Source: Sulfurimonas sp. HSL3-7
GTDB lineage: Bacteria > Campylobacterota > Campylobacteria > Campylobacterales > Sulfurimonadaceae
Direction: 5' to 3'
Assembly: GCF_039645985.1 (NCBI RefSeq)
Contig: NZ_CP147919.1
Location: forward strand, 1 to 64,000
Length of the DNA: 64,000 nt
Shown here: positions 24,841 to 46,519 of the stretch, one piece after another
How the letters are laid out: each line of letters starts with the position of its first letter
How positions within the stretch are numbered: the stretch's first letter is position 1
The notes under the pieces: generated by a model
Database searches by the model: none
Told to the model about the DNA's origin: nothing
Seen by the model: the letters and a program-made list of their open reading frames with translations, nothing else
Translations under genes and position numbers: made by a program

Positions 24841-25851
24841 ATGTTTCAAAGGCTTTTTTTGCTCCCGCTTCTGTTTCTGCAACTTGCTGCGTCCGAAATG
24901 AAGGAGTGCTCCGGTCTCCCTTTTGTTGCGAAACATATCTACGGGGCATCTCCGCCGGTCAACTATCTGCTCTATGCGGTTGACCCTTCTCTGCTCGTTG
25001 GTCTGAATTTCCCGCTGCGCCGACATGAAGAGGCCTATTTCGGCGATGTGTCAGGGTTGCCCGTCATCGGAGGCTGGTTCGGACAGGGACGGACACCCAA
25101 CCTCGAGATGTTGGCAGCGGTGGCGCCTGATCTGACGATCACGTGGAACTACCGCGGTGATTTCGGGCGTATCGCAAAGACGCTTGATGGGCTCGGCCTG
25201 GTCTCTTGCGCGCTGCCGATAGACCGTCTTGACGATTATCCCGAAGCGTTCAGAACGCTCGGAAAGATCACTCAGAAGGAGGCGAGAGGGCAGGCACTGG
25301 CCGACGATTTTGAGCGGCGGCTACAGGCTGCGGAGGCGGTGCGTCTGAAACACAGCGGAAAAAAAGCGCCGCGCGTCTACTACGCGGAAGGGCCTGATGG
25401 GCTTAAAACGGAGTGTTCGGGTTCGGTCCATGCCGAATTGATCGAGAGGGCCGGCGGAGAGAATGTCCATCGTTGCAGCATTACAGGCGGGTTCGGGATG
25501 GAACAGATCACGGTCGAGCAGCTGCTGCTCTACGATCCCGATCTCATCATTGTCTTTGACCCGTCGTTTTACAAAAAGATCTTCGGGGATGAACGTTTTT
25601 CGCGTCTGAAGGCTGTCAAAGAGGGGAAGGTCTATCCCATCCCGCGTTCGCCGGTCAACTGGTTTGACCGTCCCCCTTCGTTTATGCGCATTGCCGGCCT
25701 GGAGTGGCTGCAGCATCGCTTATGGCCGGAGGCAACGGACGGGGCGCTGGTGCAATCGCTGAAGGGTTTTTTCGAACTCTATTTTAAGCGGAAGATGTCG
25801 CCGGATGAGATCCGGTTGCTGCTGTACCCGAGACAGGAGGAGAAGCGATGA
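24841..25851 (+). CDS. MolA/FecB-like periplasmic binding protein 1
   Basis: 336-aa substrate-binding protein of the helical-backbone (FecB/BtuF/MolA) class. The signal peptide is about residues 1-18 (ending LAAS); no lipobox is seen. Conserved with the paralog at 29814: LVGLNFPL, an ECSGS-HAELIE-AGG stretch with two cysteines, and NWFDRPPSFMR near residue 275. These shared residues may form the ligand pocket. AAGG lies 6 nt upstream of the ATG. It is first gene of a roughly 10-kb operon with a TonB receptor, an importer and TonB-ExbBD. By context and ModE-like sites the ligand is molybdate, tungstate or a chelate; a ferric siderophore is the main alternative. Confidence 0.75.
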   Translation: MFQRLFLLPLLFLQLAASEMKECSGLPFVAKHIYGASPPVNYLLYAVDPSLLVGLNFPLRRHEEAYFGDVSGLPVIGGWFGQGRTPNLEMLAAVAPDLTITWNYRGDFGRIAKTLDGLGLVSCALPIDRLDDYPEAFRTLGKITQKEARGQALADDFERRLQAAEAVRLKHSGKKAPRVYYAEGPDGLKTECSGSVHAELIERAGGENVHRCSITGGFGMEQITVEQLLLYDPDLIIVFDPSFYKKIFGDERFSRLKAVKEGKVYPIPRSPVNWFDRPPSFMRIAGLEWLQHRLWPEATDGALVQSLKGFFELYFKRKMSPDEIRLLLYPRQEEKR

Positions 25852-26342
25852 AGACAGTGATAGCACTGCTGCTGGGTTTTGCCCTTTTACAGGCCGGTGT
25901 TCTTGAGATCGGGGGGAGTGTCGAGAAACCGCTTCGCATCGACAGCGGCGCCTTTTCAGCCATGAAGCAGACCGAACTTGAAAAGGTAGGGCTGGTTTGC
26001 ATGAGCGGCGAGACAAAAGCAGCACCGAAGCGCCGCAAAGGGGTACTGCTGCGCACGCTGTTTGAAGCGTCCGGGCTGAAGGTTTCCCGCCGCGGCGACC
26101 GAAACCGCGCGGTCGTGCTTGCTTCGGGAAGGGACGGCTACAGTGTGGCGTTCAGCTACCAGGAGCTTGTCAACACGCCGGTAGGTGAGAGGGTCCTGGT
26201 CGTGGATGAGGACGGGATGTTCGGTCTCTATACCGAGCAGGATTATATCACCGGACCGCGCCATGTCCGCAACCTTGTCCGGCTGGAGGCTGTAATCCTC
26301 GACAGCGGCATATCAAATCAAAAGGATACAAATGAAAAATGA
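25848..26342 (+). CDS. small secreted protein with sulfite-oxidase-like (molybdopterin-binding) fold
   Basis: 164 aa with a signal peptide (about 1-16, LLQA-GV). The body resembles the Oxidored_molyb domain: a start like VLEIGGSVEKPLRI, a cysteine at VCMSGETK where sulfite oxidases ligate molybdenum, then RKGVLLRTLFEASGL, DGYSVAFSYQEL and RHVRNLVRLEAV. It is shorter than true enzymes and lacks their dimerisation domain. By inference it binds a molybdenum species or handles it in the periplasm. It overlaps the binding protein by 4 bp and the TonB receptor by 11 bp, so the three are tightly coupled. Confidence 0.65.
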   Translation: MKTVIALLLGFALLQAGVLEIGGSVEKPLRIDSGAFSAMKQTELEKVGLVCMSGETKAAPKRRKGVLLRTLFEASGLKVSRRGDRNRAVVLASGRDGYSVAFSYQELVNTPVGERVLVVDEDGMFGLYTEQDYITGPRHVRNLVRLEAVILDSGISNQKDTNEK

Positions 26343-28314
26343 AAAATCGACGGTGCTTGCAGCCCTGCTGGCTTCAAGTCTCCTGCAGGCGGAGAGCTTT
26401 GATCTGGGAAAGGTCAGCGTTGCGACGACTGAAGAGTCAGTCGGGCTGTTTGAAACAGAGGTGACGGACGAAGCGATGACACTGCACTCAAGCGAGACGA
26501 TCGCTGATGCGCTCAACAATGTCAGCGGCGTCTATGTCGGCAATATGGGCGGGCGAAACGAGACCACGGTCAGTATCCGCGGTTTTGATGCCCGCCGTAT
26601 CGCCGTTTTTGCAGACGGGGTACCGATTTACGTTCCGTATGACGGTAACTTCGACTACGGCCGTTTTATGACTTCGGATCTCGGGGAGATCACCGTTTCA
26701 AAAGGGTTTTCCTCCGTTCTCTACGGGGCCAACACCTTTGCCGGGGTCATCAATCTTGTCTCGAAAAAGCCGCTCAAGCCGTTTGAAGCGGAGATAGGTA
26801 CGACACTAGTGCTCGACAGTGATGCCACAATGGCCCGCTATCTCGGCGCGCTCAATGTCGGCACCCGTCAGGAGAACATCTATGCGCAGCTGAGCGCCAG
26901 CTATATGCAACAGGACCATTTCCGTCTCAGCGACGATTATGAGGCTACAGCGGAGCAGCCTGCAGGCGACCGGCTGCGTTCGCAGAGCGAAGACAAGAAG
27001 GTGAGCTTCAAGATCGGCTATATTGCCGATGACAAGAGCGAGATCGCACTCTCTTACGCGAACCAGCAGGCGGAAAAAGAGCAGCCGCCGGTGACGGACC
27101 CCGCGTACAGCCGGACCAAATACTGGGATTGGCCGAAATGGGATAAAGAGAGTATCAGTCTAAACGGCCGGAAGAACTTTGACGGCAGTTATGTTAGAGG
27201 GAACATCTATTACGATACCTATAACAATGCGCTTGATTCCTATGATGACGCCAATTATACGACGATGAACAAGAAGTATGCCTTCAAAAGCGAATATGAC
27301 GACTATAGTGCCGGAGGACGGCTGGAGTACGGCATTGAACTGGGCGATTACAGTATCAAAGCGGCCGTCAACTACAAGAGAGATGTCCACCGCGGCTACG
27401 ACATTGACAAGGTGACGGATGCGTCGACCCTGATAGAGGAGTACCACGACGATATCTATTCGTTCGGTCTTGAAGGGACCTACCGGGCGACGGAGGTCCT
27501 TTCAGTGATCGCCGGCATCGGCTACGACCGCATGAAACCGGGGAAATTCTACGATACCAACAAAGACCAGAACGTCAGTGGCGGTGAAGCACAGGGCGCG
27601 TTAAACCCTCAGCTGGCACTGCTTTACGGTTTCGGAAGGATGGGTACGCTCCGTGCCAGCGTCGCACAGAAGACCCACCTGGCGACTATGAAAGAGCGCT
27701 ATTCACGCAAGCTAGGCTATGCTGTCGCAAACCCGGATCTGGGCGAAGAGCGTGCAACGCATTATGAGCTTGCTTATCAGTTTGCAAGGTCGGGATTCTT
27801 ACTGGCCACGTCGCTCTACTACTCCCGTATCAGTGATGCGATCCAAAACGTCTACTATGACACTTTTGACGGCGTAGACCGTACCCGTAATGAGAACATC
27901 GGCGATTTTGCACATACAGGTTTCGAGGTCGACCTCGGTTATATGCGCGGTGCATGGCAGGGCGGTATGAATTATGCCTATATCAACGTCAACAACCTTG
28001 ATCAGAGCAGCGAGAAGATGATCAATGTCCCGAAACACGAGCTTTTCGCCTATGTGGATTATGCGCTGACTAAAGCGTTATCACTGTATGGGAATATGCA
28101 CTTTAGAGACGGTGCCTATTCGCAGGATAGCAGCGGAAACTATCTGGAGGTCCCTTCGTTTACCACCTTCGATCTCAAGGCGACCTATACGATAGGCGAG
28201 AGCCTGAAAGCCGCAGCCGGGGTCAAGAACCTCCTGGACAAGAACTACGCGTACGATCTTGGTTTTCCCGAAGCGGGACGCGAGTTTTTCATGACGCTGG
28301 CCTACAGCTACTGA
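26332..28314 (+). CDS. TonB-dependent outer-membrane receptor 1
   Basis: 660 aa. The signal peptide ends near residue 20 (SLLQA-ES). A plug domain follows (about 45-155: ETIADALNNVSGVYV, VSIRGFDARRIAVFADGVPIYVPY, GEITVSKGFSSVLYGANTFAGVINLVSKKP). A 22-strand-type barrel ends in AYSY. AAAGGAT precedes the ATG. It is one of three such receptors in the window, all downstream of ModE-like palindromes. Imports a substrate too large or too scarce for porins, powered by TonB-ExbB-ExbD, which this operon also encodes. The ligand is inferred as a molybdenum/tungsten species. Confidence 0.88.
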   Translation: MKNEKSTVLAALLASSLLQAESFDLGKVSVATTEESVGLFETEVTDEAMTLHSSETIADALNNVSGVYVGNMGGRNETTVSIRGFDARRIAVFADGVPIYVPYDGNFDYGRFMTSDLGEITVSKGFSSVLYGANTFAGVINLVSKKPLKPFEAEIGTTLVLDSDATMARYLGALNVGTRQENIYAQLSASYMQQDHFRLSDDYEATAEQPAGDRLRSQSEDKKVSFKIGYIADDKSEIALSYANQQAEKEQPPVTDPAYSRTKYWDWPKWDKESISLNGRKNFDGSYVRGNIYYDTYNNALDSYDDANYTTMNKKYAFKSEYDDYSAGGRLEYGIELGDYSIKAAVNYKRDVHRGYDIDKVTDASTLIEEYHDDIYSFGLEGTYRATEVLSVIAGIGYDRMKPGKFYDTNKDQNVSGGEAQGALNPQLALLYGFGRMGTLRASVAQKTHLATMKERYSRKLGYAVANPDLGEERATHYELAYQFARSGFLLATSLYYSRISDAIQNVYYDTFDGVDRTRNENIGDFAHTGFEVDLGYMRGAWQGGMNYAYINVNNLDQSSEKMINVPKHELFAYVDYALTKALSLYGNMHFRDGAYSQDSSGNYLEVPSFTTFDLKATYTIGESLKAAAGVKNLLDKNYAYDLGFPEAGREFFMTLAYSY

Positions 28315-28316
28315 TC

Positions 28317-29216
28317 ATGGAACTGGGACTTACGCTTGTCGGGGATGCGACCGACACCACTCCTGCTGAAGCGAGCGCAGCTTTTCTGGAGCTCTGCCGA
28401 ACGGCGGAGCAGAGCGGTCTGCAGACCCTCTGGTTTACCGAACACCATCATAACCCCACACGAATGAGCTCAACGATCCCGGTGCTGATGGCGGCAGCCG
28501 GGGCACAGACGAGCTTGAATCTCGGGGCGGCGACGCTGTTGCCGGGACTGCATGACACCACCCGTATGGCGGAGTCGATGGGCACGCTCGAATCGCTCTA
28601 TCCGGGACGATTGCTATGGGGATTCGGCAAGGGGGGACGCAGTGAGATCCTCTATACCCATCTGGAGCATATCACGCCGGAAAATGCACGTGAAGAGATG
28701 ATGCGCAACCTGCGTTCTTTGCTGGCACTTCGGGGCAGCGAAGAGGTGATGCCGCCGCTCTCGCATGACACCCCATGGTTCGTGGCCACCCGCGATACCG
28801 CGGCAGTACAGCTGGCTGCCGAAAACGGACTTGGCGTGATGTTCGGCCATAAATGGCCGCTCGAAGAGCTTGTCGGGATTGTCTCTACCTACCGGTCGGC
28901 CCATCCGGAAGGGCGGGCCCCGGCCATCATGCTTTCGCGCTATTTTCTCTGCGACAGCGACGGGGAACAGGTGCAGCGGAGGATGACCGAGGAGGTGGGA
29001 AAACGGCGGGAACATATGCGCCGGAGGGGACGTTCGCTCGGTGAGGCGTCCGGAGAGGGTATCCGTTTCCGTGAGTCGCTGGTCGGCACACCCCAGGAGT
29101 GCCGTGAACGCATGGCCTATTTCAGAGCGATGGGCGTGACCCATCTGAGCCTGCGGCCTGTCTCCACATGTCACGAAGATACGGCAGCCTCGCTTGTCAT
29201 GCTTGCGCAGCGATAG
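28317..29216 (+). CDS. LLM-class flavin-dependent oxidoreductase 2
   Basis: 299-aa luciferase-like flavoprotein. The TIM-barrel landmarks are SGLQTLWFTEHHHNP near residue 35, LNLGAATLLPGLHD, YPGRLLWGFGKGG and GTPQECRERMAYFRAMGVTHLSLRP near the C-terminus. It starts 2 bp after the receptor stop, so it is within the operon. It is distantly similar to the protein at 22899-23894. Neither matches a named enzyme I can recognise, so the substrate is open. Oxidation of an organic ligand after metal delivery is one possibility, but this is inference. Confidence 0.8.
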   Translation: MELGLTLVGDATDTTPAEASAAFLELCRTAEQSGLQTLWFTEHHHNPTRMSSTIPVLMAAAGAQTSLNLGAATLLPGLHDTTRMAESMGTLESLYPGRLLWGFGKGGRSEILYTHLEHITPENAREEMMRNLRSLLALRGSEEVMPPLSHDTPWFVATRDTAAVQLAAENGLGVMFGHKWPLEELVGIVSTYRSAHPEGRAPAIMLSRYFLCDSDGEQVQRRMTEEVGKRREHMRRRGRSLGEASGEGIRFRESLVGTPQECRERMAYFRAMGVTHLSLRPVSTCHEDTAASLVMLAQR

Positions 29217-29246: not shown

Positions 29247-29804
29247 ATGAATGAAGAGGCGATCTCTACCTTTAGAGAGTGCAATGTGAATGCCCGTTTT
29301 ACACCTGCGGGCGATGAGGTGAGGAAAGTTGAGCCGAAGGTCGACTTTGTCTACCCGGCGGTTCCTTTCCCTTCGAAACGGATCTTCGGTGCGATGGGAG
29401 AGGAACGGATCCAGGAGATGGTCTACCATCACCATGCCCTGCTTCGCAAGAGCGCCGTCGGGGAGATGTTCCCGGCCGACAATGCCGCTTTTGAAGCTGC
29501 CGTTCTCAAGACAGCCGACTTTTTTATTGAGGCAACGGGCGGTCCGAGCGTCTTTACATCGCAGTACGGCCATCCGGCGCTGCGTGAGCGCCATTTCCGC
29601 TTTCTGATCGATGAAAGAGCGCGGGAGATCTGGCTGATGATGTATAAAAAGACCCTCAAAGAGATCGCCTTTCCTAAAGAGCATCTCCGGGAGTTCTGGA
29701 GCTGGATCGAGCCCCTCTCGATCCGCATGATCAACCGCCGTACCGGTTTTGAGATGCCCAAGCGTTATCCGTTTGAGACCATTGCCCATGAGTTCGGGCT
29801 TTAA
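29247..29804 (+). CDS. truncated-hemoglobin-family protein
   Basis: 185 aa. The core resembles group III truncated globins: MVYHHHALLRKSAVGEMFP, FFIEATGGPSVFTSQYGHP, LRERHFRFLIDERAREIWLM, then MYKKTLKEI. The His within QYGHP or RERHF is the probable proximal heme ligand region. It is longer than the usual 120-130 aa because of an N-terminal extension (about 45 residues) and a C-terminal tail. No signal peptide, so cytoplasmic. AAGGAG precedes the ATG. Globins of this group handle oxygen or nitric oxide or act in redox steps. Its place between an LLM flavoprotein and molA is unusual. Confidence 0.72.
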   Translation: MNEEAISTFRECNVNARFTPAGDEVRKVEPKVDFVYPAVPFPSKRIFGAMGEERIQEMVYHHHALLRKSAVGEMFPADNAAFEAAVLKTADFFIEATGGPSVFTSQYGHPALRERHFRFLIDERAREIWLMMYKKTLKEIAFPKEHLREFWSWIEPLSIRMINRRTGFEMPKRYPFETIAHEFGL

Positions 29805-29813: not shown

Positions 29814-30824
29814 ATGTTACGTATGATCCTGATATTTCTGCTGCTCGGCAGCACTTTTCATGCCCGCATGATAACCGATATGGCGGGACGCAGCGTGGAC
29901 GTCGAAGCGAACCTGACCCGCGTTTTCGGCTCCTCGCCGCCGACGACCTATCTGGTTGTCCTCTTTAAACCGGAGGCACTGGTGGGGCTGAACTTCCCGC
30001 TTGACAACCCGAACAACAGAGGTTCCGATATCCTCGATGCGCGCCTCAAGACACTTCCGATCCTCAAAGGGTGGCACGGCAACGCCGGTGGCAGCAGCGC
30101 CGAAAAGCTGCTTGAACGCAGGACCCAGTTGATCATCGGCTGGAACAACGCCTTTTTGAACAATATGATCGAAAAGAGCCTGCACGGTGCCGATATCCCG
30201 GTGATCTATGTGGAGCCTGATGATATGCAGAAGCTGCCGGCGACCTTTCGTTTCCTCGGAAAACTTTTTGAAAAAGAGCAGCGGGGCGAAGCGCTCGCTT
30301 CGTATGCCGAAACGGTCAACAGCCGTCTTGCATCGCTGCGTAAAGGGGTGAAAAAGCCCAAGAGTGTCTATTATGCTCTCGGTCCGAAAGGGCTTAACAG
30401 CGAATGCGACAACTCGTTCCATGCCAATTTTATCGAAGCGGCCGGGGCCGTCAATATCAACCATTGTGAACAAAGTTCGCTGATCGGGATGGAAGCGGTC
30501 TCCTTCGAATCGCTACTTGCCAGACAGCCCGATGCGATTCTGGTACAGGATAGGAACTTCTACCGTACCATCTTTGACGATCCTCAGTGGGGACTGCTGA
30601 GAGCGGTCAAGGAGAAGGCGGTCTATTATGTGCCGAAAACACCGATCAACTGGCTGGACCGTCCGCCTTCGTTTATGCGCCTGATCGGGACACAATGGCT
30701 GGCTGCCACCCTCTATCCGGAGCACTTTAAAGAGGATCTAAATGCCGAGATAACGCGCTTTTTCGACCTTTTTTTCGGCCGTTCCCTTGAAGAGCAGCAG
30801 CGCAGAAAGATGATGCAACCATGA
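29814..30824 (+). CDS. molA: MolA-like periplasmic molybdate/tungstate-binding protein 2
   Basis: 336-aa FecB/MolA-class binding protein. The signal peptide is about residues 1-17 (STFHA). MITDMAGRSVDVE is the usual start of the class. It shares LVGLNFPL, ECDNSFHANFIEAAG and NWLDRPPSFMR with the protein at 24841, with which it is the same length. The name follows Haemophilus influenzae MolA, a binding protein of this class for molybdate and tungstate with the FecCD-type MolBC. It overlaps the permease gene by 4 bp. AAGGAGA lies before the ATG. The two binding proteins sharing one permease could bind different forms of the metal. Confidence 0.72.
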   Translation: MLRMILIFLLLGSTFHARMITDMAGRSVDVEANLTRVFGSSPPTTYLVVLFKPEALVGLNFPLDNPNNRGSDILDARLKTLPILKGWHGNAGGSSAEKLLERRTQLIIGWNNAFLNNMIEKSLHGADIPVIYVEPDDMQKLPATFRFLGKLFEKEQRGEALASYAETVNSRLASLRKGVKKPKSVYYALGPKGLNSECDNSFHANFIEAAGAVNINHCEQSSLIGMEAVSFESLLARQPDAILVQDRNFYRTIFDDPQWGLLRAVKEKAVYYVPKTPINWLDRPPSFMRLIGTQWLAATLYPEHFKEDLNAEITRFFDLFFGRSLEEQQRRKMMQP

Positions 30825-31804
30825 GCAGGACCCTGAGCATCTCCGCATTGACGGGGGTATTGGTATTGAGCATGCTACTGGCGCTGGGAATAGGGAAGTA
30901 TCCTATCGGGCTTGACACCTGGAGTGCGTTGCTACAGGGAACGGCACCCGACATTGCGGGCAGTGTCGTTTTCGAACTGCGGCTGCCGAGAATCATCGCG
31001 GCCGTACTGGTCGGCGCGGCCCTGTCGGTTTCGGGAGCAGCGTTTCAGTCGATGTTCGTCAACCCGCTTGTATCACCTAGCCTGCTGGGGGTGCTTGCCG
31101 GAGCCTCGTTCGGTTCGGCATTGGGCATCCTGCTCTCCGAAAGCTGGTTCGTCGTACAGCTGCTCACTTTCGCTTTCGGCGGGATCGCGGTTCTCTTTGC
31201 GATGGGCATCGCGTTGATGTACCGCGGCAGCGGTATTCTGATACTCGTTCTTGGGGGGATTATCAGTACCTCGCTCTTTACCTCGCTGCTCTCCGTTATC
31301 AAATACACCGCCGACCCCTACGACCAGCTTCCTTCGATCGTCTACTGGCTGATGGGCTCGTTTGCGCTCGTCGAGCGCTCGACGCTGCTGGGTGTCGCCC
31401 TGCCGATGCTTCTGGGCATAGCGACGCTGATGCTGCTGTCGAAATATCTCAACGTCCTCAGCATGGGCGATGACGAAGCGCGTGCTCTCGGCGTGAACGT
31501 CCGCTGGATCCGCATTGCCGCGATTACCGCGGCAACCCTGATCAGTAGTCTCACGGTGGTGACGGCGGGGGTAATCGGCTGGGTGGGGCTTGTCATTCCT
31601 CACATCGCACGTATGGCGGTGGGGCCGGACAACAGGCTGTTGATCCCGACCAGCGCGCTGCTCGGCGGCACCTACCTGCTTCTGGTCGATACCCTATCAA
31701 GGACGATGTTTGATTCGGAGATCCCGATCGGCATCCTCACCTCTCTTGTCGGGATCCCGGCCTTTGTCATCATCCTCAGAAACGCCAAAAAAGGGTGGGG
31801 CTGA
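30821..31804 (+). CDS. molB: FecCD/MolB-type ABC transporter permease
   Basis: 327-aa inner-membrane permease of the BtuC/FecCD family with about ten membrane segments. Family motifs are LRLPRIIAAVLVGAALSVSG, NPLVSPSLLGVLAGA and, near the C-terminus, GWVGLVIPHIARM. H. influenzae MolB belongs to this family and carries molybdate/tungstate; most other members carry ferric siderophores or vitamin B12. The gene shares 4 bp with molA and one base with the ATPase gene. The assignment to Mo/W is based on the ModE-like operators and neighbouring genes, not on specificity residues. Confidence 0.8.
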   Translation: MSRTLSISALTGVLVLSMLLALGIGKYPIGLDTWSALLQGTAPDIAGSVVFELRLPRIIAAVLVGAALSVSGAAFQSMFVNPLVSPSLLGVLAGASFGSALGILLSESWFVVQLLTFAFGGIAVLFAMGIALMYRGSGILILVLGGIISTSLFTSLLSVIKYTADPYDQLPSIVYWLMGSFALVERSTLLGVALPMLLGIATLMLLSKYLNVLSMGDDEARALGVNVRWIRIAAITAATLISSLTVVTAGVIGWVGLVIPHIARMAVGPDNRLLIPTSALLGGTYLLLVDTLSRTMFDSEIPIGILTSLVGIPAFVIILRNAKKGWG

Positions 31805-32586
31805 TGCTGCGCGCCGAGAATATCCACTTCGCTTATGAACACGGCAAGGTGCTTGACGGGATTTCGTTCCATATCCGCCCGGGGGAGGTGGTCTCGCTGC
31901 TTGGCCCCAACGGAACCGGGAAGTCGACGCTGATCAGAATATTGACGGGGCTGAACGCGCCCGATGCCGGCCGGGTCCTTCTGGAGGGAAGAGATCTCCG
32001 TGAGATCTCTTTCGGTGAGCGGGCAAAAATGGTCGCCTATGTTCCGCAGTCGCACCGAAGCGCTTTCGGGTATGCGGTGCTTGACGTGGTGCTGATGGGG
32101 CGGATCGCTTCACAGTCGCTCTTTTCGCGATACAGCAGAGAAGACCGTGAAAAGGCAGAAGAGGCGCTCGAACGCGTCGGTATGCTGAAGTATGCCGGCA
32201 AGAGCTATACGATGCTCAGCGGGGGCGAACGCCAGCTGGTCCTGATCGCCCGTGCACTGGCACAGGGGGCGAGCCTCTTTATTATGGACGAACCGGTATC
32301 GGGGCTCGATTACGGCAACCAGCTGCGCTTGCTGCAGCAGATCGACGCACTGGCTTCGCAGGGGTACACCTTTTTGAAATCGACGCACTATCCCGACCAT
32401 GCGATGATGGTCTCGACGCGGGTGATCATGCTCCGCGACGGAACGGTACGCGCGGACGGTGCACCGAAAGAGGTGGTCACCCCGGAACGTATCGACGAGC
32501 TCTATGATGTCAGGGTATCGATGCATGACCACCCTTCGGGGATGCGTCTCTGCGTGCCAGATGCTTTCGGAGGAAAGCAGGTATGA
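31804..32586 (+). CDS. molC: FecE/MolC-type ABC transporter ATPase
   Basis: 260-aa ATPase for the FecCD-type permease. Walker A GPNGTGKST lies near residue 35, the signature MLSGGERQLV near 137 and Walker B LFIMDEPVSGLD near 157. A late H-loop histidine is in STHYPDHA. ATG 31804 is preferred because it shares one base with the permease stop (TGATG); an in-frame GTG at 31795 would lengthen the overlap. It overlaps the tonB gene by 4 bp, so importer and TonB machinery are translationally chained. Confidence 0.82.
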   Translation: MLRAENIHFAYEHGKVLDGISFHIRPGEVVSLLGPNGTGKSTLIRILTGLNAPDAGRVLLEGRDLREISFGERAKMVAYVPQSHRSAFGYAVLDVVLMGRIASQSLFSRYSREDREKAEEALERVGMLKYAGKSYTMLSGGERQLVLIARALAQGASLFIMDEPVSGLDYGNQLRLLQQIDALASQGYTFLKSTHYPDHAMMVSTRVIMLRDGTVRADGAPKEVVTPERIDELYDVRVSMHDHPSGMRLCVPDAFGGKQV

Positions 32587-33293: not shown

Positions 33294-33301
33294 GAGAGAT
33301 C

Positions 33302-37239: not shown

Positions 37240-37388
37240 AGATTTCCTTTTTGTCTCCCGTTTTCGATGCATCTGTATGTCTGCTGCTTTTTAGCATGGC
37301 TGTCAGAAAAGAGAATATTTACGGACACATCGCTGATGGGTAGATGGGTATATAACGCAGAGAAGAGCCTCCAGGCTAAAAGCCATTT

Positions 37389-37412
37389 CATTATATAAAT
37401 GAAAATATAACG
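37389..37412 (-). promoter_or_regulatory. ModE-like operator B
   Basis: CATTATAT-N8-ATATAACG, 150 bp upstream of TonB receptor 2 and read towards it. A lone half-site ATATAACG also lies at 37350-37357. Near it GGCT-AAA-AGCC and AGCCT-CC-AGGCT inverted repeats occur (37366-37384). Confidence 0.75.
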
Positions 37413-37703: not shown

Positions 37704-37727
37704 CATTATATATTAAAAAATATAACG
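37704..37727. promoter_or_regulatory. ModE-like operator C
   Basis: CATTATAT-N8-ATATAACG, the same arms as operator B, in the 797-bp gap between TonB receptor 2 and modE. A TATAAT lies at 37666-37671. The direction it controls is unclear; transcription toward the candidate structured RNA or toward modE are both possible. Confidence 0.7.
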
Positions 37728-37933: not shown

Positions 37934-37962
37934 TTGCATTTCCTTATATAATCGTGTATACT
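37934..37962 (+). promoter_or_regulatory. sigma-70-like promoter of modE
   Basis: TTGCAT (37934-37939) and TATACT (37957-37962) with 17-bp spacing, about 75 bp upstream of the modE start. It does not overlap any ModE-like palindrome, so modE may not be tightly autoregulated. Confidence 0.55.
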
Positions 37963-38036
37963 ACGTAAAAGATTTTTTTGACGTCAGTCACATGGTAAAT
38001 GTGGTTGTTGCAAGTAAAAAAAAGTAAGGCAGTGGT

Positions 38037-38849: not shown

Positions 38850-38873
38850 CGTTATATATTAAAATATATTATG
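38850..38873 (+). promoter_or_regulatory. ModE-like operator D
   Basis: CGTTATAT-N8-ATATTATG, 148 bp upstream of the porin-led mod operon and directly after the modE terminator. The arms are identical to those of operator F in front of modD-modB-modC. Confidence 0.7.
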
Positions 38874-39020: not shown

Positions 39021-40499
39021 ATGAATAACATAATAACAGGTGCGGGCATATTGGCCGTAGCACTGCTTTTGACGTCGAATGTATCTGGGAATGAGGAACT
39101 TCCGAAGCGTACACTCAAGACCAACTACCAGGAGGTCTATAACGAGAATCCGGGTTCTGCGAAGAGCTTTACGGAAATGTTTTCAGAGGGGATGTTCTAC
39201 GGGCGTCTGCGTTCGAACACCTTCTACTACAACTGGAAAAAAGAGAGCGACACGCAGAAAAACCACCTTGTCAGCGGCCTCGGCGGATCGCTGATCTACA
39301 AGAGTGCAGCGCTGGACGGCTTTGATTTTGGCGGAGGACTCTACTACTCGCGCGCCTTTTTTGACAGCACGGATGACCCTGTCGGCAGCTTGAAACCGGG
39401 CAAAGATGTGTTGAGCCGTTATGACTATGCCAATACGGGGAACAAGTCGATGGGTACCCTTGGTCAGGCTTATGTGCGCTACCGCGGTATCCCTCAGACC
39501 CAGATTATCGCCGGTCGTCAGCTGGTGGAGACCTTCTATACCAAGTCCAACGATACCAAGATGATTCCGAACACTTTCGACGGTCTGGTCGTCGAGACGA
39601 AAGTGATCCCGGACACCGGTGTCAAACTCGCCTACCTTTATCAGCAGAAGCTGCGTGACCATACCCAGGCACACTCGGTGCTGATGTACGGCGATGCCAA
39701 TTCAACCTCTTCAGTGAGTCCGAACTGGAGCGAGAATGACGACTCGGCGATGCACAAAGGGCTCACCTATACCCGTTTAAAAGAGGCCGGTGTCAGCACG
39801 AAAGCACCGCTGATCGTCGGTGATCTTCACAACCAGTCGGTTGCGAACCTGAAGCTCGACGCCTCGTTTTACGCGGTACCGGAGCTGGTCTCGGAGGTAA
39901 TGGCCGAGGCAAACTACAAGATCGGCATGGGGAGTTTCTCCCTGACGCCGGGTGTGCGCTACATCAAACAGTTTGACAACGGCGCGGGCGAGATCGGCGG
40001 GGCTTCCTACAGTGGAAAACTGGCCGGTCTGAGTGGCGAGAGTGGTGGTTACAAAGAGGCAGACTCGCTTGATTCACAGATGGTCGCGGCGCGTCTGGTC
40101 GGAAGCTATGGCCTCTACAAGCTCAACCTCGGCTATTCGCAGGTCTTTGACGAGGCCGACTTGATCACTCCGTGGCGTGGTTTCCCGACGGCAGGCTACA
40201 CCCGTTCGATGGCGCGTTACAACTGGATGGCAAACACCAAAAGCTACCGTATCGAGCTGCAGCGAAATGCCAACAAGAAGGGGATCTACACCGACCTCTT
40301 TATCCAGGCCTCGATCCTTCATACCGATGCGGATGAGAGTAAGGGTTACTTTGACGAGAACTTCTACTACGTCGGCTTTGTGCAGAATGTTCCGGCTCTT
40401 ATCGAGCTGCAGTGGCGCCTGAGACTGGGCTATACCGACACCGAAAAAACCGATGCGGACAGCCTTGACGGCCGTTTCGAACTTAACTACCTGTTCTAA
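39021..40499 (+). CDS. OprD-family outer-membrane porin of the mod operon
   Basis: 492 aa with a signal peptide (about 1-24). The barrel resembles the OprD family: FTEMFSEGMFYGRLRSNTFYY, IYKSAALDGFDFGGGLYYSRAF, AYVRYRGIPQTQIIAGRQLV, DGLVVETKVIPDTGVKLAYL, ending FELNYLF. It starts an operon continuing with a di-Mop protein, ModA, another di-Mop protein and a TSUP permease, under operator D. Porins of this family admit small solutes passively, so a molybdate- or tungstate-favouring pore is inferred. GGAAT lies upstream of the ATG. Confidence 0.82.
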   Translation: MNNIITGAGILAVALLLTSNVSGNEELPKRTLKTNYQEVYNENPGSAKSFTEMFSEGMFYGRLRSNTFYYNWKKESDTQKNHLVSGLGGSLIYKSAALDGFDFGGGLYYSRAFFDSTDDPVGSLKPGKDVLSRYDYANTGNKSMGTLGQAYVRYRGIPQTQIIAGRQLVETFYTKSNDTKMIPNTFDGLVVETKVIPDTGVKLAYLYQQKLRDHTQAHSVLMYGDANSTSSVSPNWSENDDSAMHKGLTYTRLKEAGVSTKAPLIVGDLHNQSVANLKLDASFYAVPELVSEVMAEANYKIGMGSFSLTPGVRYIKQFDNGAGEIGGASYSGKLAGLSGESGGYKEADSLDSQMVAARLVGSYGLYKLNLGYSQVFDEADLITPWRGFPTAGYTRSMARYNWMANTKSYRIELQRNANKKGIYTDLFIQASILHTDADESKGYFDENFYYVGFVQNVPALIELQWRLRLGYTDTEKTDADSLDGRFELNYLF

Positions 40500-40510: not shown

Positions 40511-40930
40511 GTGAAAATCAGTGCAAGAAATCAGATAGAAGCGGCTGTTACGGCGGTCGAAAAGGGTGCGGTGAATGCCGCCGTGACGCTGAAAGCGCCG
40601 ATGGGTACCGAACTATCGGCAATCATCACCAACCAGAGTGCAGAGATGCTGGGGCTGGAAGCAGGTCAGTATGTGACAGGTTTTTTCAAAGCCTCGCACG
40701 TTCTGATCGCGATCGGTGGGATACCGAACATCAGTGCCCGTAACAAACTGAAGGGCAGCGTCGTTAAGATCACAAAAGGCGCTGTCAACAGCGAGATCGA
40801 TGTCAAGCTTGTCAGCGGCGATATTATTGTGGCGATTATTACAAATGAGGCTGTAACCGACTTGTCTTTGAAAGAGGGCAGCGAAGTGTTCGCGATCATC
40901 AAATCGACCGACGTTATGATCGCAAAATAA
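40511..40930 (+). CDS. mop: molbindin-like di-Mop protein 1
   Basis: 139 aa made of two Mop (TOBE) domains, about 1-70 and 72-139 (ISARNQIEAAVTAVEKGAVNA and ISARNKLKGSVVKITKGAVNSE). Such molbindins store or buffer molybdate and tungstate in the cytoplasm as multimers. GTG start at 40511 with AGGA upstream. It lies 11 bp after the porin and 15 bp before modA. The two domains closely resemble the second half of ModE, suggesting a common origin. Confidence 0.9.
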   Translation: MKISARNQIEAAVTAVEKGAVNAAVTLKAPMGTELSAIITNQSAEMLGLEAGQYVTGFFKASHVLIAIGGIPNISARNKLKGSVVKITKGAVNSEIDVKLVSGDIIVAIITNEAVTDLSLKEGSEVFAIIKSTDVMIAK

Positions 40931-40945: not shown

Positions 40946-41692
40946 ATGAAAAAGTCTTTATTAGCACTGCTATTTGCCGCGGCAACCCTTGCCGCAGGCG
41001 AGATCAACATCGCGGTGGCGGCCAATGTCAGCTACGCCATCGATGAACTGAAGGCGGAATTCGCCAAGAGCCATCCTGATACCAAGGTGCAGGTGACGCT
41101 CGGCAGCAGCGGAAAACTGACGGCGCAGATCAAAAACGGTGCCCCTTACGGCCTCTTTATGGCGGCCAATATGAAGTACCCGCAGGCCCTTTACAGCGAC
41201 AAGGTCGCCGTAACGGAGCCGGTGGTCTATGCGCAGGGGGCACTGGCCTACCTGAGCGTCAAGAAGCAGAATTTCGCAGAGGGGATCACGCTGCTTGGAA
41301 GCGACAAGATCGGTAAGATCGCCGTTGCCAACCCCAAGACGGCCCCTTACGGCAAGGCGGCAATCGAGGCGATGAAGAACGGCGGGGTCTACGAGAAAGC
41401 CAAAGAAAAATTCGTCTTTGCCGAATCGATCTCACAGACCGTCACCTATGCGATCACGGCGGCCGACATCGGTCTGATCGCCAAGTCCTCGCTCTACAGC
41501 GACAAGATGACACAGTACAAAGAGGGGGTGAACTGGGCGGCGGTCGATCCCAAGCTCTATACGCCGATCAAACAGGGGATCGTCCTGCTTAAAAACAGTG
41601 AAGGCAACGGCGAATACCGGGCCTTTTACGACTTTATCCTGAGTGCCAAGGCGAAGGCGATCCTGAAAGCGTACGGGTACATAGTAGAATGA
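40946..41692 (+). CDS. modA: periplasmic molybdate-binding protein ModA 1
   Basis: 248 aa. The signal peptide is about residues 1-18. The oxyanion-binding fold starts INIAVAANVSYAIDELKAEF, then VQVTLGSSGKLTAQIKNGAPYG, and later IGKIAVANPKTAPYGKAAIEA, all typical of ModA. GGAGGAG precedes the ATG. No ModB or ModC gene lies in this operon. The nearest permease-ATPase pair is encoded at 47799-49336, so ModA must work with a permease from another unit. Confidence 0.92.
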   Translation: MKKSLLALLFAAATLAAGEINIAVAANVSYAIDELKAEFAKSHPDTKVQVTLGSSGKLTAQIKNGAPYGLFMAANMKYPQALYSDKVAVTEPVVYAQGALAYLSVKKQNFAEGITLLGSDKIGKIAVANPKTAPYGKAAIEAMKNGGVYEKAKEKFVFAESISQTVTYAITAADIGLIAKSSLYSDKMTQYKEGVNWAAVDPKLYTPIKQGIVLLKNSEGNGEYRAFYDFILSAKAKAILKAYGYIVE

Positions 41693-42087
41693 ACAAGATC
41701 AGTGCGAGCGTAACGTCTATCGAGAGCGTTGACAGTGTCAGTATTGTCAGCTTTGATGCCGCCGGCCAGCCGATGCGGATGATGTCGCTTGAGCTTGACG
41801 GCATGCTTGCGGCAGGCGACAGCGTGACCCTGGGCGTCAAAGCCTCGAGTATTGCTCTGGCCAAAGTGCTGGAGGGGGAGTTCAGTATCTCCAACCGTCT
41901 TGAGTGTGCGGTCGAAAGTCTGACGGAGGGGCAGCTGCTCTGCAGCGTAAAGCTCCGTTTCGGCAAGGCCCTGCTCGAGAGTGTCATCACCCGCGAATCT
42001 GCAGAGCGTCTGCACCTGCAGGTCGGCGATACCGTTACCGCACTGATCAAGGCCAGTGATGTCTCGATTCTTGAAACGATCAGATAG
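41689..42087 (+). CDS. divergent di-Mop protein 2
   Basis: 132 aa with two TOBE/Mop-like halves. The second (about 65-132: FSISNRLECAVESLTEGQLLCSVKL, VITRESAERLHLQVGD) fits the family. The first half is degenerate (SASVTSIESVDSVSIVSF). It overlaps modA by 4 bp and the TSUP gene by 29 bp. It may bind the oxyanion weakly, or act as an adaptor subunit. This is the second such protein in the same operon. Confidence 0.78.
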   Translation: MNKISASVTSIESVDSVSIVSFDAAGQPMRMMSLELDGMLAAGDSVTLGVKASSIALAKVLEGEFSISNRLECAVESLTEGQLLCSVKLRFGKALLESVITRESAERLHLQVGDTVTALIKASDVSILETIR

Positions 42088-42877
42088 ACGAAACCGCGCG
42101 GGGTTCTTCGCGGCGGCTGCGGTCGCATCGCTGGCCGGTCTCATCGGGCTGGGCGGCGCGGAGTTCCGGCTGCCCATCCTCAAAGCACTCTTTCGTCTAC
42201 CGTCGCTGAAGGCGGTCATCTTCAACAAAGCCACGTCGCTGGTCGTCGTCTTTTTCGCCCTTTTTTTCCGTATGCACGAGATATCGTTCGGTATGCTGGC
42301 CGATCATACTTCGATCATCCTCAACCTCCTTGGCGGCAGCCTGATCGGCGCATGGGTCTCGGCCGGTATCGCGATGCGTATATCGGAGCAGACCCTCGAT
42401 GCGGTGATCATGGTGCTTCTTTTGGCAATGGCTGCTGTTCTTCTGCTTGACCAGACCTCCTTTATGCAGAGAGAAGAGCTCTTTTTCGAAACGCTGTGGG
42501 CGCGTACCTTGGCGGGTGTCACGGCTGGTTTTTTTATCGGGATGGTCGCGGCGGTGCTCGGTGTTGCCGGGGGAGAACTGCTTATTCCGACGATCGTTTT
42601 GCTCTACGGCGTCGATATCAAGCTGGCAGGAAGCCTTTCGCTGGCGGTCAGCCTGCCGACGATGCTGGTGGGCTTTTTCCGTTACAGCAGGGGCGCCGCT
42701 TTCGAGGTACTTTCCCAGGAGCGGGGGCTTCTGATTTCTATGGTGGTGGGCTCCATCGTCGGTGCCGGCATCGGAGCGCTGCTGCTCGGTGTTGTCCCGG
42801 CCGGGTTACTGACCGTGGGCCTTTCGCTGCTGCTTATACTCTCTGCGATCAAGATTTTCAGGCACAAAACGGCCTAG
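42059..42877 (+). CDS. TSUP (TauE/SafE) family membrane permease
   Basis: 272 aa, about eight membrane segments in two halves. The family motif GLIGLGGAEFRLPIL near residue 30 recurs as VLGVAGGELLIPTIVLLYGV near 170. TSUP proteins carry sulfur oxyanions and similar organic anions. Sitting last in the modA/Mop operon under operator D, it may move molybdate or tungstate, or a competing oxyanion. It overlaps the preceding gene by 29 bp. ATG 42059 is used; GTG 42056 is also possible. Confidence 0.75.
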   Translation: MSRFLKRSDRRNRAGFFAAAAVASLAGLIGLGGAEFRLPILKALFRLPSLKAVIFNKATSLVVVFFALFFRMHEISFGMLADHTSIILNLLGGSLIGAWVSAGIAMRISEQTLDAVIMVLLLAMAAVLLLDQTSFMQREELFFETLWARTLAGVTAGFFIGMVAAVLGVAGGELLIPTIVLLYGVDIKLAGSLSLAVSLPTMLVGFFRYSRGAAFEVLSQERGLLISMVVGSIVGAGIGALLLGVVPAGLLTVGLSLLLILSAIKIFRHKTA

Positions 42878-42923: not shown

Positions 42924-43598
42924 CTAATAGTTGTTTTTTTTCTGCAGGATGTTCAGGAAGAAAAAGAGCACCAGGGCGATGCTTGTCAATACGCCGCTTA
43001 GCTGCCATGCGAGATCGTATTCGCCGTCTATGACGGCGTTGTAGAGCGCAAGCGAGATGGTGTCGGTCTCTCCGATGATGTTGCCGCCGAGTATTAGGGT
43101 GATGCCCACCTCGCCAAGTGCCCTCGCCGAGGCGATCAGCAGGGCGGCGATCAGACTGCGTTTGATGCTCGGCAGTATGACGGCAAAAAGCGTCTGCATC
43201 TCCCCCTTACCGCTGATGAAAGAGGCTTCGACGATCGGCTTCGGGAAGTGCTCTATGGCGGACTGGAGGGGTTTGACCATCAGCGGGAGGCCGGCGATGA
43301 AACCGGCGATGACGAGGGCCGGAAACTCGAAGATAACGGTGATGTCAAACTCCCCCAGAAAAGCGCCTATCACGCCGTCGCGCCCCAGCAGTATCAGCAG
43401 GAAAAAGCCGAGTGCGATCGGCGGAAAGACGAGGGGCATCGTGATGACGCTCTCAAACAGCCATTTGAACCGCAGGTCCTCTTTGGCGAGATAATAGGCG
43501 GCGGGTATGCCGACAAGAAGAAAGAGGGTACTGCAGACCATGACCGTTTTCAGACTCAGCAGCAGCGGTCCGATGATCTGTCCCATCTCGATCGTCAC
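42924..43598 (-). CDS. modB: ModB-type ABC permease 2 (no partner ATPase gene nearby)
   Basis: 224-aa molybdate/tungstate-type permease with about five membrane segments. LVFPPIALGFFLLILLG is a ModB signature, and EASFISGKGEMQTLFAVILP holds the ATPase-docking loop. The GTG start lies in a GTGA overlap with the preceding modA2 stop. It is the last gene of receptor3-modA2-modB2 under operator E. No ATPase gene accompanies it, so it probably borrows ModC (48482) or another ATPase. The second ModB with its own ATPase is at 47799. Confidence 0.85.
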   Translation of the reverse strand: MTIEMGQIIGPLLLSLKTVMVCSTLFLLVGIPAAYYLAKEDLRFKWLFESVITMPLVFPPIALGFFLLILLGRDGVIGAFLGEFDITVIFEFPALVIAGFIAGLPLMVKPLQSAIEHFPKPIVEASFISGKGEMQTLFAVILPSIKRSLIAALLIASARALGEVGITLILGGNIIGETDTISLALYNAVIDGEYDLAWQLSGVLTSIALVLFFFLNILQKKNNY

Positions 43599-44308
43599 AG
43601 GCCGTACTTTTTGAATATTTCACGGGCCCGCTCACCCCGCAGGTAGTCGAGGAAGGTCTGGCAGTCTCTGCTGCGGCTGCATTCGGGCAGAGTGCCCGCG
43701 ACAATGTCGATCTTCTCATAGTACTGCTGCGGTATGACCAGGTAGCCGCCGAGCTTCTTCTCGTTTGCGAGCGCCGCGGTCAGGTTGATGAGCCCGGCAT
43801 CGACCTCGTTGGCCACCAGGTAGGCGGTGACCTGCGGAACGGTTGCGACAATACGAAGTCTCTCTTTGACCGTTTCGTAGAGGCCGCTGCGCTGCAGGAA
43901 CGTCTCTGCGGCGATGCCGTAGATCGCCTTGGAGGGCTTGGCAATGGCAATGGCACGGACACGTTCCTGCGCAAGGTCGCTGCAGGCCGTCAGGGCGGTA
44001 TTTTTGGGGTAGGCAAGCACCAGTTTGCCGCTTCCGAGACTTGTGAACCCGTCAAAGGCGAGGCCGCTCTGGTCACTGAGGTAGTTACGGTCGCCGATCA
44101 GAAGAGCGATATCGGTGTGTTTTGCCTGAACGGAGATCTGTCTGACATTGCCGAAAATGGCCTTGACAGGGGAACCTCCCTCCTGCCGATAGGCTTTTAT
44201 GACCTCCTGTAGGGGCTTTTTGTAGCCGGCCGCCGCCGCTATTTTGATCTTCTGTTCAGCATAGAGAAGCGTGCCGGCAAGGGTGAAGAGAAAAAGAAGG
44301 CGTCGCAT
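43595..44308 (-). CDS. modA: periplasmic molybdate/tungstate-binding protein ModA 2
   Basis: 237 aa with a signal peptide (about 1-17, GTLLYA-EQ). The binding fold shows IKIAAAAGYKKPLQEVIKAY, VKAIFGNVRQISVQAKHTDIALLIGD, RAIAIAKPSKAIYGIAAETF and VDAGLINLTAA. It is clearly diverged from ModA 1 (the SSGK loop is replaced by NVRQ), so its preferred oxyanion may differ. GGAG precedes the ATG. It is 9 bp after TonB receptor 3 and coupled to modB2. Confidence 0.82.
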   Translation of the reverse strand: MRRLLFLFTLAGTLLYAEQKIKIAAAAGYKKPLQEVIKAYRQEGGSPVKAIFGNVRQISVQAKHTDIALLIGDRNYLSDQSGLAFDGFTSLGSGKLVLAYPKNTALTACSDLAQERVRAIAIAKPSKAIYGIAAETFLQRSGLYETVKERLRIVATVPQVTAYLVANEVDAGLINLTAALANEKKLGGYLVIPQQYYEKIDIVAGTLPECSRSRDCQTFLDYLRGERAREIFKKYGL

Positions 44309-44317
44309 CTTCTCCGC

Positions 44318-46519
44318 CTAGAACTTGAGCGCTATACCGGCATAGACACCGAAAGGCGCCCCGGCCTGATAGCTGGTCTTTGTCGTGTTGGCCGCGAGCG
44401 CATTGTCCGGTGTGATGATGGATGAGATGTACTGGCGGTTGAAGAGGTTGGTCATCGTCACCCTGAAGGTCGCCTCTTTGAACGCCCAGAGTTTTTTATA
44501 GGTGTAGGAACCATCGATATCGACCAGTGTCGCTCCGGAGATCTTCTGGGTATTGTCCACATCGCCGTAGCGCTCGGAGTAGTAACGCAGCGAAGGGGTC
44601 AGCTGCCACCCGCCCTCGTGGTAGGTCACGGCCGCGTTGGCCATATATTTCGGGGCGTCTGGGATCTGGTTTCCCTTGATGGATGCAGTCTTGGTCGCAC
44701 CGGTCTGGAGGTCCTCCGTATAGTAGTAGCGGTTGTACGAGCCGCTTACCATGAAATCAAGGTAGCTCGTCGCGGCACCGCTGGCGGTCAGTTCGAAGCC
44801 GTAGCTCATCGCATCGGCGTTGTTGGTCGGATAGACGACATCATATTCGGCATCATACAGACTTGCCTGCTTACCGGTGACACGGGTGAAGAAGAGGTTC
44901 GGATTGAGGGTGATCCCCCCGGTGTTATACGTCATCCCCAAATCAAAGTTGTCGGAGAGCTCGGGCTGCTGTTTGTCCCATAACTGCTGCAGTGAGATCC
45001 CTTTTGCCGCGAAGTTCTGTCCCTGTTTCTGGTTGGAGACATAGAACGGGAAGAGATTGACATCGTAACCGTAGCTTCTTGTATAGTCGGTATAGAAGTG
45101 CAGGTTCTCCTGAGGTGCGTAGGCGAGGTAGAGACTCGGCAGCCACTCTCTGTAAATCTTTGCGTCAACGCTTGAGAGCGGATCGATCGAGCCGTTTTTG
45201 TAGTTGTCTATCCCTGCCAGTCTGAAGTTCAGGTAGCGCAGCCCCGCGACATAGGAGAAACCGCTATTTTCGCCGGAAAACTCGATGAAAGGGGAATTGA
45301 ACTCATGATAATCGGTCTCGGCCTGAATGGCGGTCTTTGTATAGACAGGTGTTCCGCTGCTGACGTCATAGAGCTCCTGGTCGGTCGGCGGTCCCGGAGG
45401 CTGCTGCCAGTGCATCCAGTAGCCGAGTTTGAGGCGCAGGGCTTCGAGAATCTTCTGCTCGTACTGCGCCACGCCGCCGAAGAGGTCATGGTCGATCTGC
45501 CAGTGTTTGACAGCGGTGTTGGCCGGATTTGAAGGGGCGGTATCGAACCAGTACTCCCCTTTGTCATGGAGGTAGTAGGGCTTGAAACTGACTTTGGAGC
45601 CCTCTGCAAAGGCGTACTCTATGTTGGCCATTACGGCCGTGTCCTCGAACTTCTGCTTGTTGTAATCGGCATAGGCGGCTTTTGTAGCGTCCTTGCCGTA
45701 GTCCTTGTCGTAATAGGTGTCGAGGTCGCTGGCCTCCTCATACGTCATCTGGTAGTAGTTGTTATGGGTATCTTTGTTCATGATGACATAGAGTTCGCTC
45801 TTGAAGCGGTCGTTCGGGGTATAGGCAAATCCCAGCATCCCGTTATAGCGCTCAAGGTCGCCGTCACCCTTCCATTTGTCCCCCTGGGTGTAGGAGAAGG
45901 AGCCGAAGGCCGACACATCGCCCATTTTACCCGTGTCCACCCGCATAAAAGTGCGTGCGGCGTTGTCGCTTCCCGCCATCTGCGAGAGCTGGACGGCAAA
46001 GCTGTTTTTCGGCCTATCGATGATCAGGTCGACCTTGCCGATAAGATTGGAGAAGCCGAGACTTTTGTCCACCGGCATGTAACCTTTGTAGAGGTCGACA
46101 TAGGCGAAGTTTTCCATGTCGTAGATGGTTTTTCCTCCGCCGGGATTGCTGTTTAACGGCAGCCCTTCGACCGTGAGCACACCGCCGGGCCCCGACTGGT
46201 TTTTACCGCGGATGCGCATCGGGTCGTGGAAGGAGCTCTCGTTCGAGCCGAAGGCATCCACCGAATTGAAACTGACGGAAGGGGACATGTTGATCCCCTT
46301 CAGCGCCGATGTGTTGGCTTGCGCTGAAAATGTTTTGATCCCCGCTTCGGAGTAAGATTGTACGCCGGCGAGCGTATCGGGCGCGACAGTCGCTTCCATG
46401 TTGCTCTCGGCACTTTCGTCGACGACGACCGTATCGAGAGCAACACTTTCGGCAGCCTGGAGCATTGATGTATACGAAAGTGCAGTCAGCACCAAGGATA
46501 ATGTGATTTTTGTTTGCAT
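44318..46519 (-). CDS. TonB-dependent outer-membrane receptor 3
   Basis: 733 aa. The signal peptide ends near residue 22 (LQA-AE). A TonB-box-like DTVVVDES follows, and a plug (about 50-170: DPMRIRGKNQSGPGGVLTVEG, FAYVDLYKGYMPVDKSLGFSNLIG), then a barrel ending GIALKF. It heads a leftward operon with modA2 and modB2 under operator E. A TonB receptor cotranscribed with ModA and ModB is direct contextual evidence for energised outer-membrane uptake of molybdate or tungstate. Confidence 0.88.
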   Translation of the reverse strand: MQTKITLSLVLTALSYTSMLQAAESVALDTVVVDESAESNMEATVAPDTLAGVQSYSEAGIKTFSAQANTSALKGINMSPSVSFNSVDAFGSNESSFHDPMRIRGKNQSGPGGVLTVEGLPLNSNPGGGKTIYDMENFAYVDLYKGYMPVDKSLGFSNLIGKVDLIIDRPKNSFAVQLSQMAGSDNAARTFMRVDTGKMGDVSAFGSFSYTQGDKWKGDGDLERYNGMLGFAYTPNDRFKSELYVIMNKDTHNNYYQMTYEEASDLDTYYDKDYGKDATKAAYADYNKQKFEDTAVMANIEYAFAEGSKVSFKPYYLHDKGEYWFDTAPSNPANTAVKHWQIDHDLFGGVAQYEQKILEALRLKLGYWMHWQQPPGPPTDQELYDVSSGTPVYTKTAIQAETDYHEFNSPFIEFSGENSGFSYVAGLRYLNFRLAGIDNYKNGSIDPLSSVDAKIYREWLPSLYLAYAPQENLHFYTDYTRSYGYDVNLFPFYVSNQKQGQNFAAKGISLQQLWDKQQPELSDNFDLGMTYNTGGITLNPNLFFTRVTGKQASLYDAEYDVVYPTNNADAMSYGFELTASGAATSYLDFMVSGSYNRYYYTEDLQTGATKTASIKGNQIPDAPKYMANAAVTYHEGGWQLTPSLRYYSERYGDVDNTQKISGATLVDIDGSYTYKKLWAFKEATFRVTMTNLFNRQYISSIITPDNALAANTTKTSYQAGAPFGVYAGIALKF

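Follow-up and report, generated by a model that had tools for sequence, protein, structure and literature searches.

The first 64,000 nucleotides of contig NZ_CP147919.1 of Sulfurimonas sp. HSL3-7 (hereafter the window), an organism whose genome is complete in one contig of 2.87 Mb, contain a molybdenum locus at 22.9-49.3 kb. Within this one locus, genes of the mod type are found together with three TonB-dependent receptors (TBDRs), a TonB-ExbB-ExbD set, a FecCD-type importer and two periplasmic binding proteins, and the core that holds the receptors and the importer measures 22 kb. As judged from the sequence, the locus very probably encodes an acquisition route for molybdenum (Mo) and/or tungsten (W) that is repressed by ModE and energised by TonB, with a complex of the metal and a ligand as a more likely cargo than the free oxyanion. 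A preliminary description of this DNA had proposed uptake of this kind, and support for it is now drawn from the linkage of the receptor to ModE boxes and mod genes across phyla, from the corresponding loci of Pasteurellaceae, from the excess of boxes at the loci of relatives and from the lack of Fur boxes.

ModE boxes and predicted operons

The boxes have the form CGTTATAT-N8-ATATAACG, which is the spacing of the E. coli ModE consensus, a consensus also given in PMC545781. The genome was scanned with the R/Y form of the box, in which 16 positions are scored, for sites that depart from it at one position or none. Nine such sites were found genome-wide and seven of them lie in this locus (binomial P 5.9e-14), so the ModE-like operators of the preliminary description hold up well, and they are best regarded as predicted ModE operators of the E. 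coli type. A chance origin was rejected on the grounds of genome-wide position, the Markov expectation and a reversed-motif control. The upstream boxes of the three receptors, sought over 500 bp, have one mismatch in 16 positions, and elsewhere in the genome the large open reading frames (ORFs) at five further TBDR loci are without a ModE box, their best upstream sites having 5 or 6 mismatches of 16. The two one-mismatch sites outside the locus, at 812514 and 1701881, have no obvious Mo gene adjoining.

A box precedes each of the transcription units predicted for the core. The largest is a run of 12 genes, from MolA1 (24841) to a small c-type cytochrome (34660), all on the forward strand with intergenic gaps of -20 to +30 bp, a spacing that points to a single operon equipped from the outer membrane to the cytoplasm. 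Its order is MolA1, a class III periplasmic binding protein (Peripla_BP_2) of a 4pag-like subfamily (24841-25851); a small periplasmic protein resembling the sulfite oxidase fold (SUOX-like; 25848-26342), with a conserved Cys and with homologues that pass PF00174; TBDR1, a receptor of a ModE-linked clade (26332-28314); a luciferase-like (LLM) flavin monooxygenase (28317-29216); a truncated-globin family protein (29247-29804); MolA2, the second 4pag-like binding protein (29814-30824); a MolB-like FecCD permease (30821-31804); a MolC-like ABC ATPase (31795-32586); TonB (32583-33293), ExbB (33302-33853) and ExbD (33834-34256); and, as the end gene, the cytochrome (34256-34660). Two boxes lie ahead of this run, one directly upstream of the MolA1 start (24810-24833) and one, with 1/16 mismatches, between MolA1 and a divergent methyltransferase gene (24712-24735). 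In the SUOX-like protein the Cys is invariant and accompanied by a conserved RH pair.

TBDR2 (35311-37272, reverse strand) overlaps the gene of an S-adenosylmethionine (SAM) methyltransferase (34685-35311, reverse), with which it is predicted to be cotranscribed. A box is located 117 bp upstream of TBDR2 (37389-37412) and another between TBDR2 and modE (37704-37727). ModE itself (38037-38828, forward) consists of a helix-turn-helix (HTH) and two TOBE domains, and directly upstream of its gene there is a weak ModE-like site with 3/16 mismatches (37942-37965). The box at 38850-38873 stands before an OprD-family porin (39021-40499), which heads a forward-strand mop-modA-mop-TauE operon made up of a molbindin with two TOBE domains (40511-40930), ModA1 (40946-41692), a molbindin-like TOBE protein (41689-42087) and a TauE/SafE permease (42056-42877). 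TBDR3 (44318-46519, reverse) has a box 85 bp upstream (46604-46627) and is followed on the same strand by ModA2 (43595-44308) and ModB2 (42924-43598; 178 bits, under the TIGR02141 cut-off of 183). The gaps of 9 and -4 bp between these three genes bear out, as far as spacing can, the earlier proposal that the third receptor is cotranscribed with modA2 and modB2. A last box (46763-46786) precedes modD-modB1-modC.

The mod-type genes of the locus thus comprise ModE, two molbindins, ModA1, ModA2, ModB1, ModB2, ModC and ModD. Of these, ModA1 (174 bits) and ModA2 (102 bits) score above the NCBIfam cut-off of 62.5 bits for TIGR01256, and the ModE domain and ModD are likewise above theirs.

The receptors

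That all three proteins are TBDRs, as first described, a class defined by a plug and a 22-strand barrel, was confirmed by Pfam matches (Plug and barrel in TBDR1, Plug in TBDR2, barrel in TBDR3) and by AlphaFold2 (AF2) models of TBDR1 and TBDR3. The TBDR1 model, with a predicted local distance difference test (pLDDT) score of 85.7, is a complete receptor with plug, its closest structure being BtuB (Z 39.0, 2.5 Å, 531 residues). The TBDR3 model (pLDDT 81.0) is likewise a complete receptor with plug and aligns over its full length to FhuA (Z 36.6, 2.9 Å, 623 residues). The likeness of these modelled folds to BtuB and FhuA says nothing about the cargo. TonB-box-like N-termini of the receptors were judged by eye only. 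The predicted TBDR1 operon includes the TonB-ExbB-ExbD set (32583-34256), which is, as had been stated, the sole one in the window, with further TonB genes elsewhere in the genome.

The NCBIfam receptor models for siderophores, heme, B12 and copper do not reach their curated cut-offs with any of the three receptors. TBDR1 gives 150 bits against a cut-off of 317 for heme, 144 against 224 for siderophores, 80 against 600 for B12 and 69 against 472 for copper; TBDR2 gives 54 bits against the B12 cut-off of 600, and TBDR3 has no NCBIfam receptor match. The weak similarity of TBDR1 to the siderophore and heme models could be taken to point to an iron siderophore or heme as the cargo, with ModE control being incidental or serving the iron supply of molybdo-iron enzymes. 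FecCD-type importers do mostly carry iron chelates, and the adjoining globin and methyltransferase are not specific to Mo. However, regulation by Fur, named at the outset as the finding that would speak for iron, left no trace: the best Fur-box site in the 500 bp upstream of each receptor has 7/19 mismatches, which is at the window background. Moreover, a linkage to ModE boxes and mod genes that is conserved across phyla and families, as described below, is not expected if the control were incidental. On these two grounds iron uptake was discarded as a candidate, and we regard this reading as very improbable.

The place of BtuB as the best structural alignment of TBDR1 raises another thought, that the cargo is a cofactor, cobalamin-like or of another kind (e.g., molybdopterin), for which the need tracks Mo status, and the SUOX-fold-like protein in the predicted TBDR1 operon would be in keeping with it. 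Yet TBDR1 falls far under the B12 receptor cut-offs, and the genome's other strong FecCD match is part of a cobalamin salvage cluster that has its own BtuB-like receptor and is without a ModE box. We know of no precedent for the uptake of a pterin cofactor through a TBDR, and a cofactor as cargo seems highly unlikely.

The importer and its binding proteins

The MolABC-type importer of the preliminary description stood in part. The best PDB match of the permease is 2nq2 (HI1471/MolB of H. influenzae), at 225 bits against 169 for the next, and other FecCD permeases match too. In contrast, the two binding proteins score 241 and 265 bits to PDB 4pag and 45 and 64 bits to HI1472/MolA. They belong to a subfamily marked by the motif DGL.T...SxH and a conserved PPS segment, and the SxH is absent from HI1472; MolA1 and MolA2 were accordingly rejected as HI1472 orthologues.

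H. influenzae MolBC-A (HI1470-1472), an importer of molybdate and tungstate, is therefore like the window system in its permease and unlike it in its binding proteins, those of the window forming a separate subfamily. The H. influenzae system is a low-affinity molybdate transporter, the loss of which is without effect at low molybdate, and its molB is repressed by molybdate via an unknown factor (PMC4031551); such repression is what a ModE box would predict. TonB, unmentioned in the MolBC-A paper (PMC4031551), is present in the window operon. The argument that MolBC-A removes the need to read these genes as iron uptake is weaker than claimed, given the different subfamily of the binding proteins and the low affinity of MolBC-A (PMC4031551), and MolBC-A alone does not decide the cargo.

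Relatives in the order and in Pasteurellaceae

In the order of the host, which belongs to the Campylobacterota, homologues of TBDR1 are present in 38 of 299 genomes and those of TBDR3 in 26 of 298. Boxes with up to two mismatches were counted at 27 TBDR1 loci in relatives: there are 45, where 1.3 are expected, and 24 of the 27 loci have at least one. The neighbours of TBDR1 in these relatives are again MolABC, ExbBD-TonB, modE and modABC. A formate dehydrogenase operon adjoins TBDR1 in some of them (L069, for which the whole locus was read), and a TupA-like binding protein stands beside it in L057, L062 and L067, with a match to the NCBIfam TupA model that is weak and confined to L057. Methyltransferases are found in 19 and flavin monooxygenases in 15 of the 27 loci, and homologues of the divergent SAM methyltransferase at 23919-24668 recur among them.

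In the genomes of 35 relatives there are 26 perfect ModE boxes and no perfect match to the reversed motif, and most of the boxes are followed by a mod, mol, receptor, methyltransferase, globin or porin gene or by one for a NifA-like GAF-domain protein. At three loci of Sulfurospirillum-like genomes (L226, L227 and L232) a lone SAM methyltransferase gene, homologous to the one at 23919-24668, lies behind a perfect box. In L231 and L234 it is the NifA-like GAF-domain regulator that a perfect box directly precedes, which suggests that ModE may control nitrogen fixation there. In L131, L136 and L240, modA-type genes are accompanied by porins similar to the one at 39021-40499, and it is plausible that the window porin is a dedicated molybdate porin.

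A TBDR1 orthologue is also carried by 22 of 121 Pasteurellaceae genomes. MolABC-like genes adjoin the receptor in 14 of 20 loci, and 16 of the 20 have a ModE box. The locus of Haemophilus massiliensis, for example, combines a MolABC-like importer, a methyltransferase, a small membrane protein, the TBDR1 orthologue and a molbindin, and its ModE boxes have zero or one mismatch. Of three binding proteins checked from receptor loci of Pasteurellaceae, none was a clear HI1472 orthologue. In four Pasteurellaceae genomes (G330, G368, G372 and G377) the TBDR1 orthologue is split into separate reading frames, and in two of these four the MolABC-like genes are kept beside it.

The receptor family in other phyla

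A scan of species genomes with the TBDR1 alignment yielded 28 close and 52 distant receptors, which were treated as a case-control set. A receptor was scored as linked if it had a ModE box within 400 bp upstream or a mod or SUOX gene within 10 kb, with the SUOX-like gene counted as a mod gene. By this measure, a ModE box or mod-type gene accompanies 20 of the 28 close loci and one of the 52 other TBDRs (P 1.6e-11). The box taken by itself gives 12 of 28 against one of 52 (P 5e-6), ModE found by profile gives 10 of 28 against one of 52 (P 7e-5), and the SUOX-like protein stands beside 6 of the 28 and none of the 52. Linkage to MolBC (7/28 versus 9/52) was rejected as a general trait of the receptor family, being unsupported outside Campylobacterota, Pasteurellaceae and a few others, and linkage to methyltransferase, monooxygenase and globin is likewise unsupported across phyla.

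A tree of 90 receptors was built by a quick method, with support from the SH-like approximate likelihood ratio test (SH-aLRT) and without bootstrap. TBDR1 falls in a clade of 38 rows (SH-aLRT 100) that covers at least eight phyla, namely Campylobacterota, Pseudomonadota, Thermodesulfobacteriota, Bacteroidota, Ignavibacteriota, Fibrobacterota, Acidobacteriota and Verrucomicrobiota. TBDR2 and TBDR3 are each in a supported group of their own. For L149, L152 and L156 the wrong ORF was probably taken, which is the reason they are outside the TBDR1 clade, and a test of the PYDG motif was biased, as the PYDG peptide had been used in the receptor scan itself. From these sequence comparisons, the link between receptor and molybdenum is evolutionary and not local.

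Further neighbours, among them cytochrome c and peroxidase genes, were seen in some phyla. In L143, L150 and L160, which are beta- and gammaproteobacterial, the genes after TBDR1 encode an extracellular solute-binding protein (SBP_bac_6) and a di-haem oxidoreductase, and cytochrome c peroxidase-like genes are downstream of TBDR1 in L070 and L163. A Geobacteraceae TBDR outside the TBDR1 clade (L171) has a ModE-like box upstream.

What the receptors may carry

In the mechanism that we propose, ModE would leave its predicted boxes when cytoplasmic molybdate is low, and the three receptors, a dedicated TonB-ExbBD motor, the two binding proteins and the FecCD importer would then be made alongside ModABC. 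TBDR1 and TBDR2 would most likely carry Mo or W on a small organic ligand, be it a metallophore or a ligand from neighbours, and the MolA-like proteins would pass the complex to MolBC. In the cytoplasm, the methyltransferase, the flavin monooxygenase and perhaps ModD may alter the ligand and so release the metal. The gene of TBDR3 adjoins modA2-modB2, and Mo or W brought in by this receptor would most likely be set free in the periplasm and go to ModA2; the cargo of TBDR3 may instead end there as the free oxyanion. A complex is favoured as the cargo of TBDR1 and TBDR2 because of the class of the importer, because a separate porin is there for the free oxyanion, because methyltransferases and flavin monooxygenases, which could act on a ligand in the cytoplasm, keep recurring, and because the known MolBC-A has a weak affinity for molybdate.

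Alternatively, the receptors might take up free molybdate or tungstate, in an energised high-affinity step in place of diffusion through porins, and MolBC and ModABC would then act side by side as importers of the inner membrane. The contiguity of TBDR3 with modA2-modB2 fits such a scheme, as do the TBDR1 homologues elsewhere that adjoin modABC or the TupA-like oxyanion-binding protein. On the other hand, the locus already has an OprD-like porin under predicted ModE control, candidate enzymes for the processing of an organic ligand are found repeatedly in the loci, and bulky ligands are the usual cargo of TBDRs. In addition, MolBC-A has a low affinity for free molybdate, and its loss is harmless when molybdate is low (PMC4031551). 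We consider free oxyanion uptake unlikely, though less so than iron or a cofactor.

More broadly, we lean somewhat towards a hitherto unrecognised cross-phylum family of TBDRs for Mo/W metallophores, Pasteurellaceae included, that is controlled by ModE and has its own binding-protein subfamily and ligand-releasing enzymes. Several points weigh against the mechanism proposed above. The ModE linkage shows the condition under which the receptors are used, not what they carry; across phyla, ModE and the SUOX-like protein are the only neighbours enriched beside the TBDR1 family; and the MolA-like proteins, nearer to 4pag, have a motif that HI1472 lacks. A metallophore biosynthesis cluster is not evident in the locus, the basis for a ligand-processing role of the enzymes is co-location only, and the porin in the same locus could serve free molybdate.

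Surroundings of the locus

The locus reaches past 46519 to modD-modB1-modC (46957-49336, forward strand), which encode a ModD like quinolinate phosphoribosyltransferase (QRPTase; 46957-47802, TIGR01334), ModB1 (47787-48482) and ModC (48482-49336). To the left it extends over 22899-24668 on the reverse strand, with the divergent SAM methyltransferase (23919-24668) and a second LLM flavin monooxygenase (22899-23894). The demand of the host for Mo is indicated by four nitrogenase-family genes and six molybdopterin enzymes in its genome. Subunits of a xanthine dehydrogenase-type molybdenum hydroxylase are encoded at 61977-63999, with an adenine deaminase gene a few kb away, and a short ORF at 17078-17338 is a repeated peptide, PFTIHHS, and hence a tandem DNA repeat.

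Known systems and meaning

The box sequence and spacing, a ModE with HTH and two TOBE domains, modABC and modD are all shared with the E. coli-type ModE-ModABC regulon, to which the window regulon adds three TBDRs, TonB-ExbBD, a FecCD importer and a porin. The full barrel with plug, and an operon that also encodes a binding protein and a FecCD importer, are shared with TonB-dependent metallophore receptors (for siderophores, pseudopaline, copper by OprC, cobalamin by BtuB and the lanthanide methylolanthanin), from which the window differs in having ModE boxes in place of Fur boxes and in passing no NCBIfam receptor cut-off. According to PMC8264917, molybdate enters by diffusing through porins. 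For Pseudomonas aeruginosa, PMC11734730 cites an active route for molybdate across the outer membrane, by way of secreted ModA and the outer-membrane protein IcmP; as far as the account there goes, it relies on the type VI secretion system and the secreted ModA, not on TonB. A TBDR for Mo or W was not found in openly licensed PubMed Central (PMC) papers, subscription papers and preprints being outside the scope, and a TonB step goes unmentioned in a molybdenum-enzyme review, as it does in the MolBC-A paper. The parts, then, are of known kinds, and what is new within the openly licensed literature is their assignment to Mo/W under ModE.

If this assignment is true, Mo/W nutrition would gain an energised and regulated step at the outer membrane, provided by a TBDR family under ModE control in at least eight phyla, with a bearing on nitrogen fixation, on formate and nitrate respiration and on competition for metals, and a testable cargo would be predicted for many unnamed receptors. 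The puzzling low affinity of MolBC-A may find an explanation as well, since a Mo complex as cargo could account for the expression of MolBC-type importers at low molybdate despite their weak binding of free molybdate. Complexed Mo and W would then be an important environmental pool, the uptake of which has a genetic signature.

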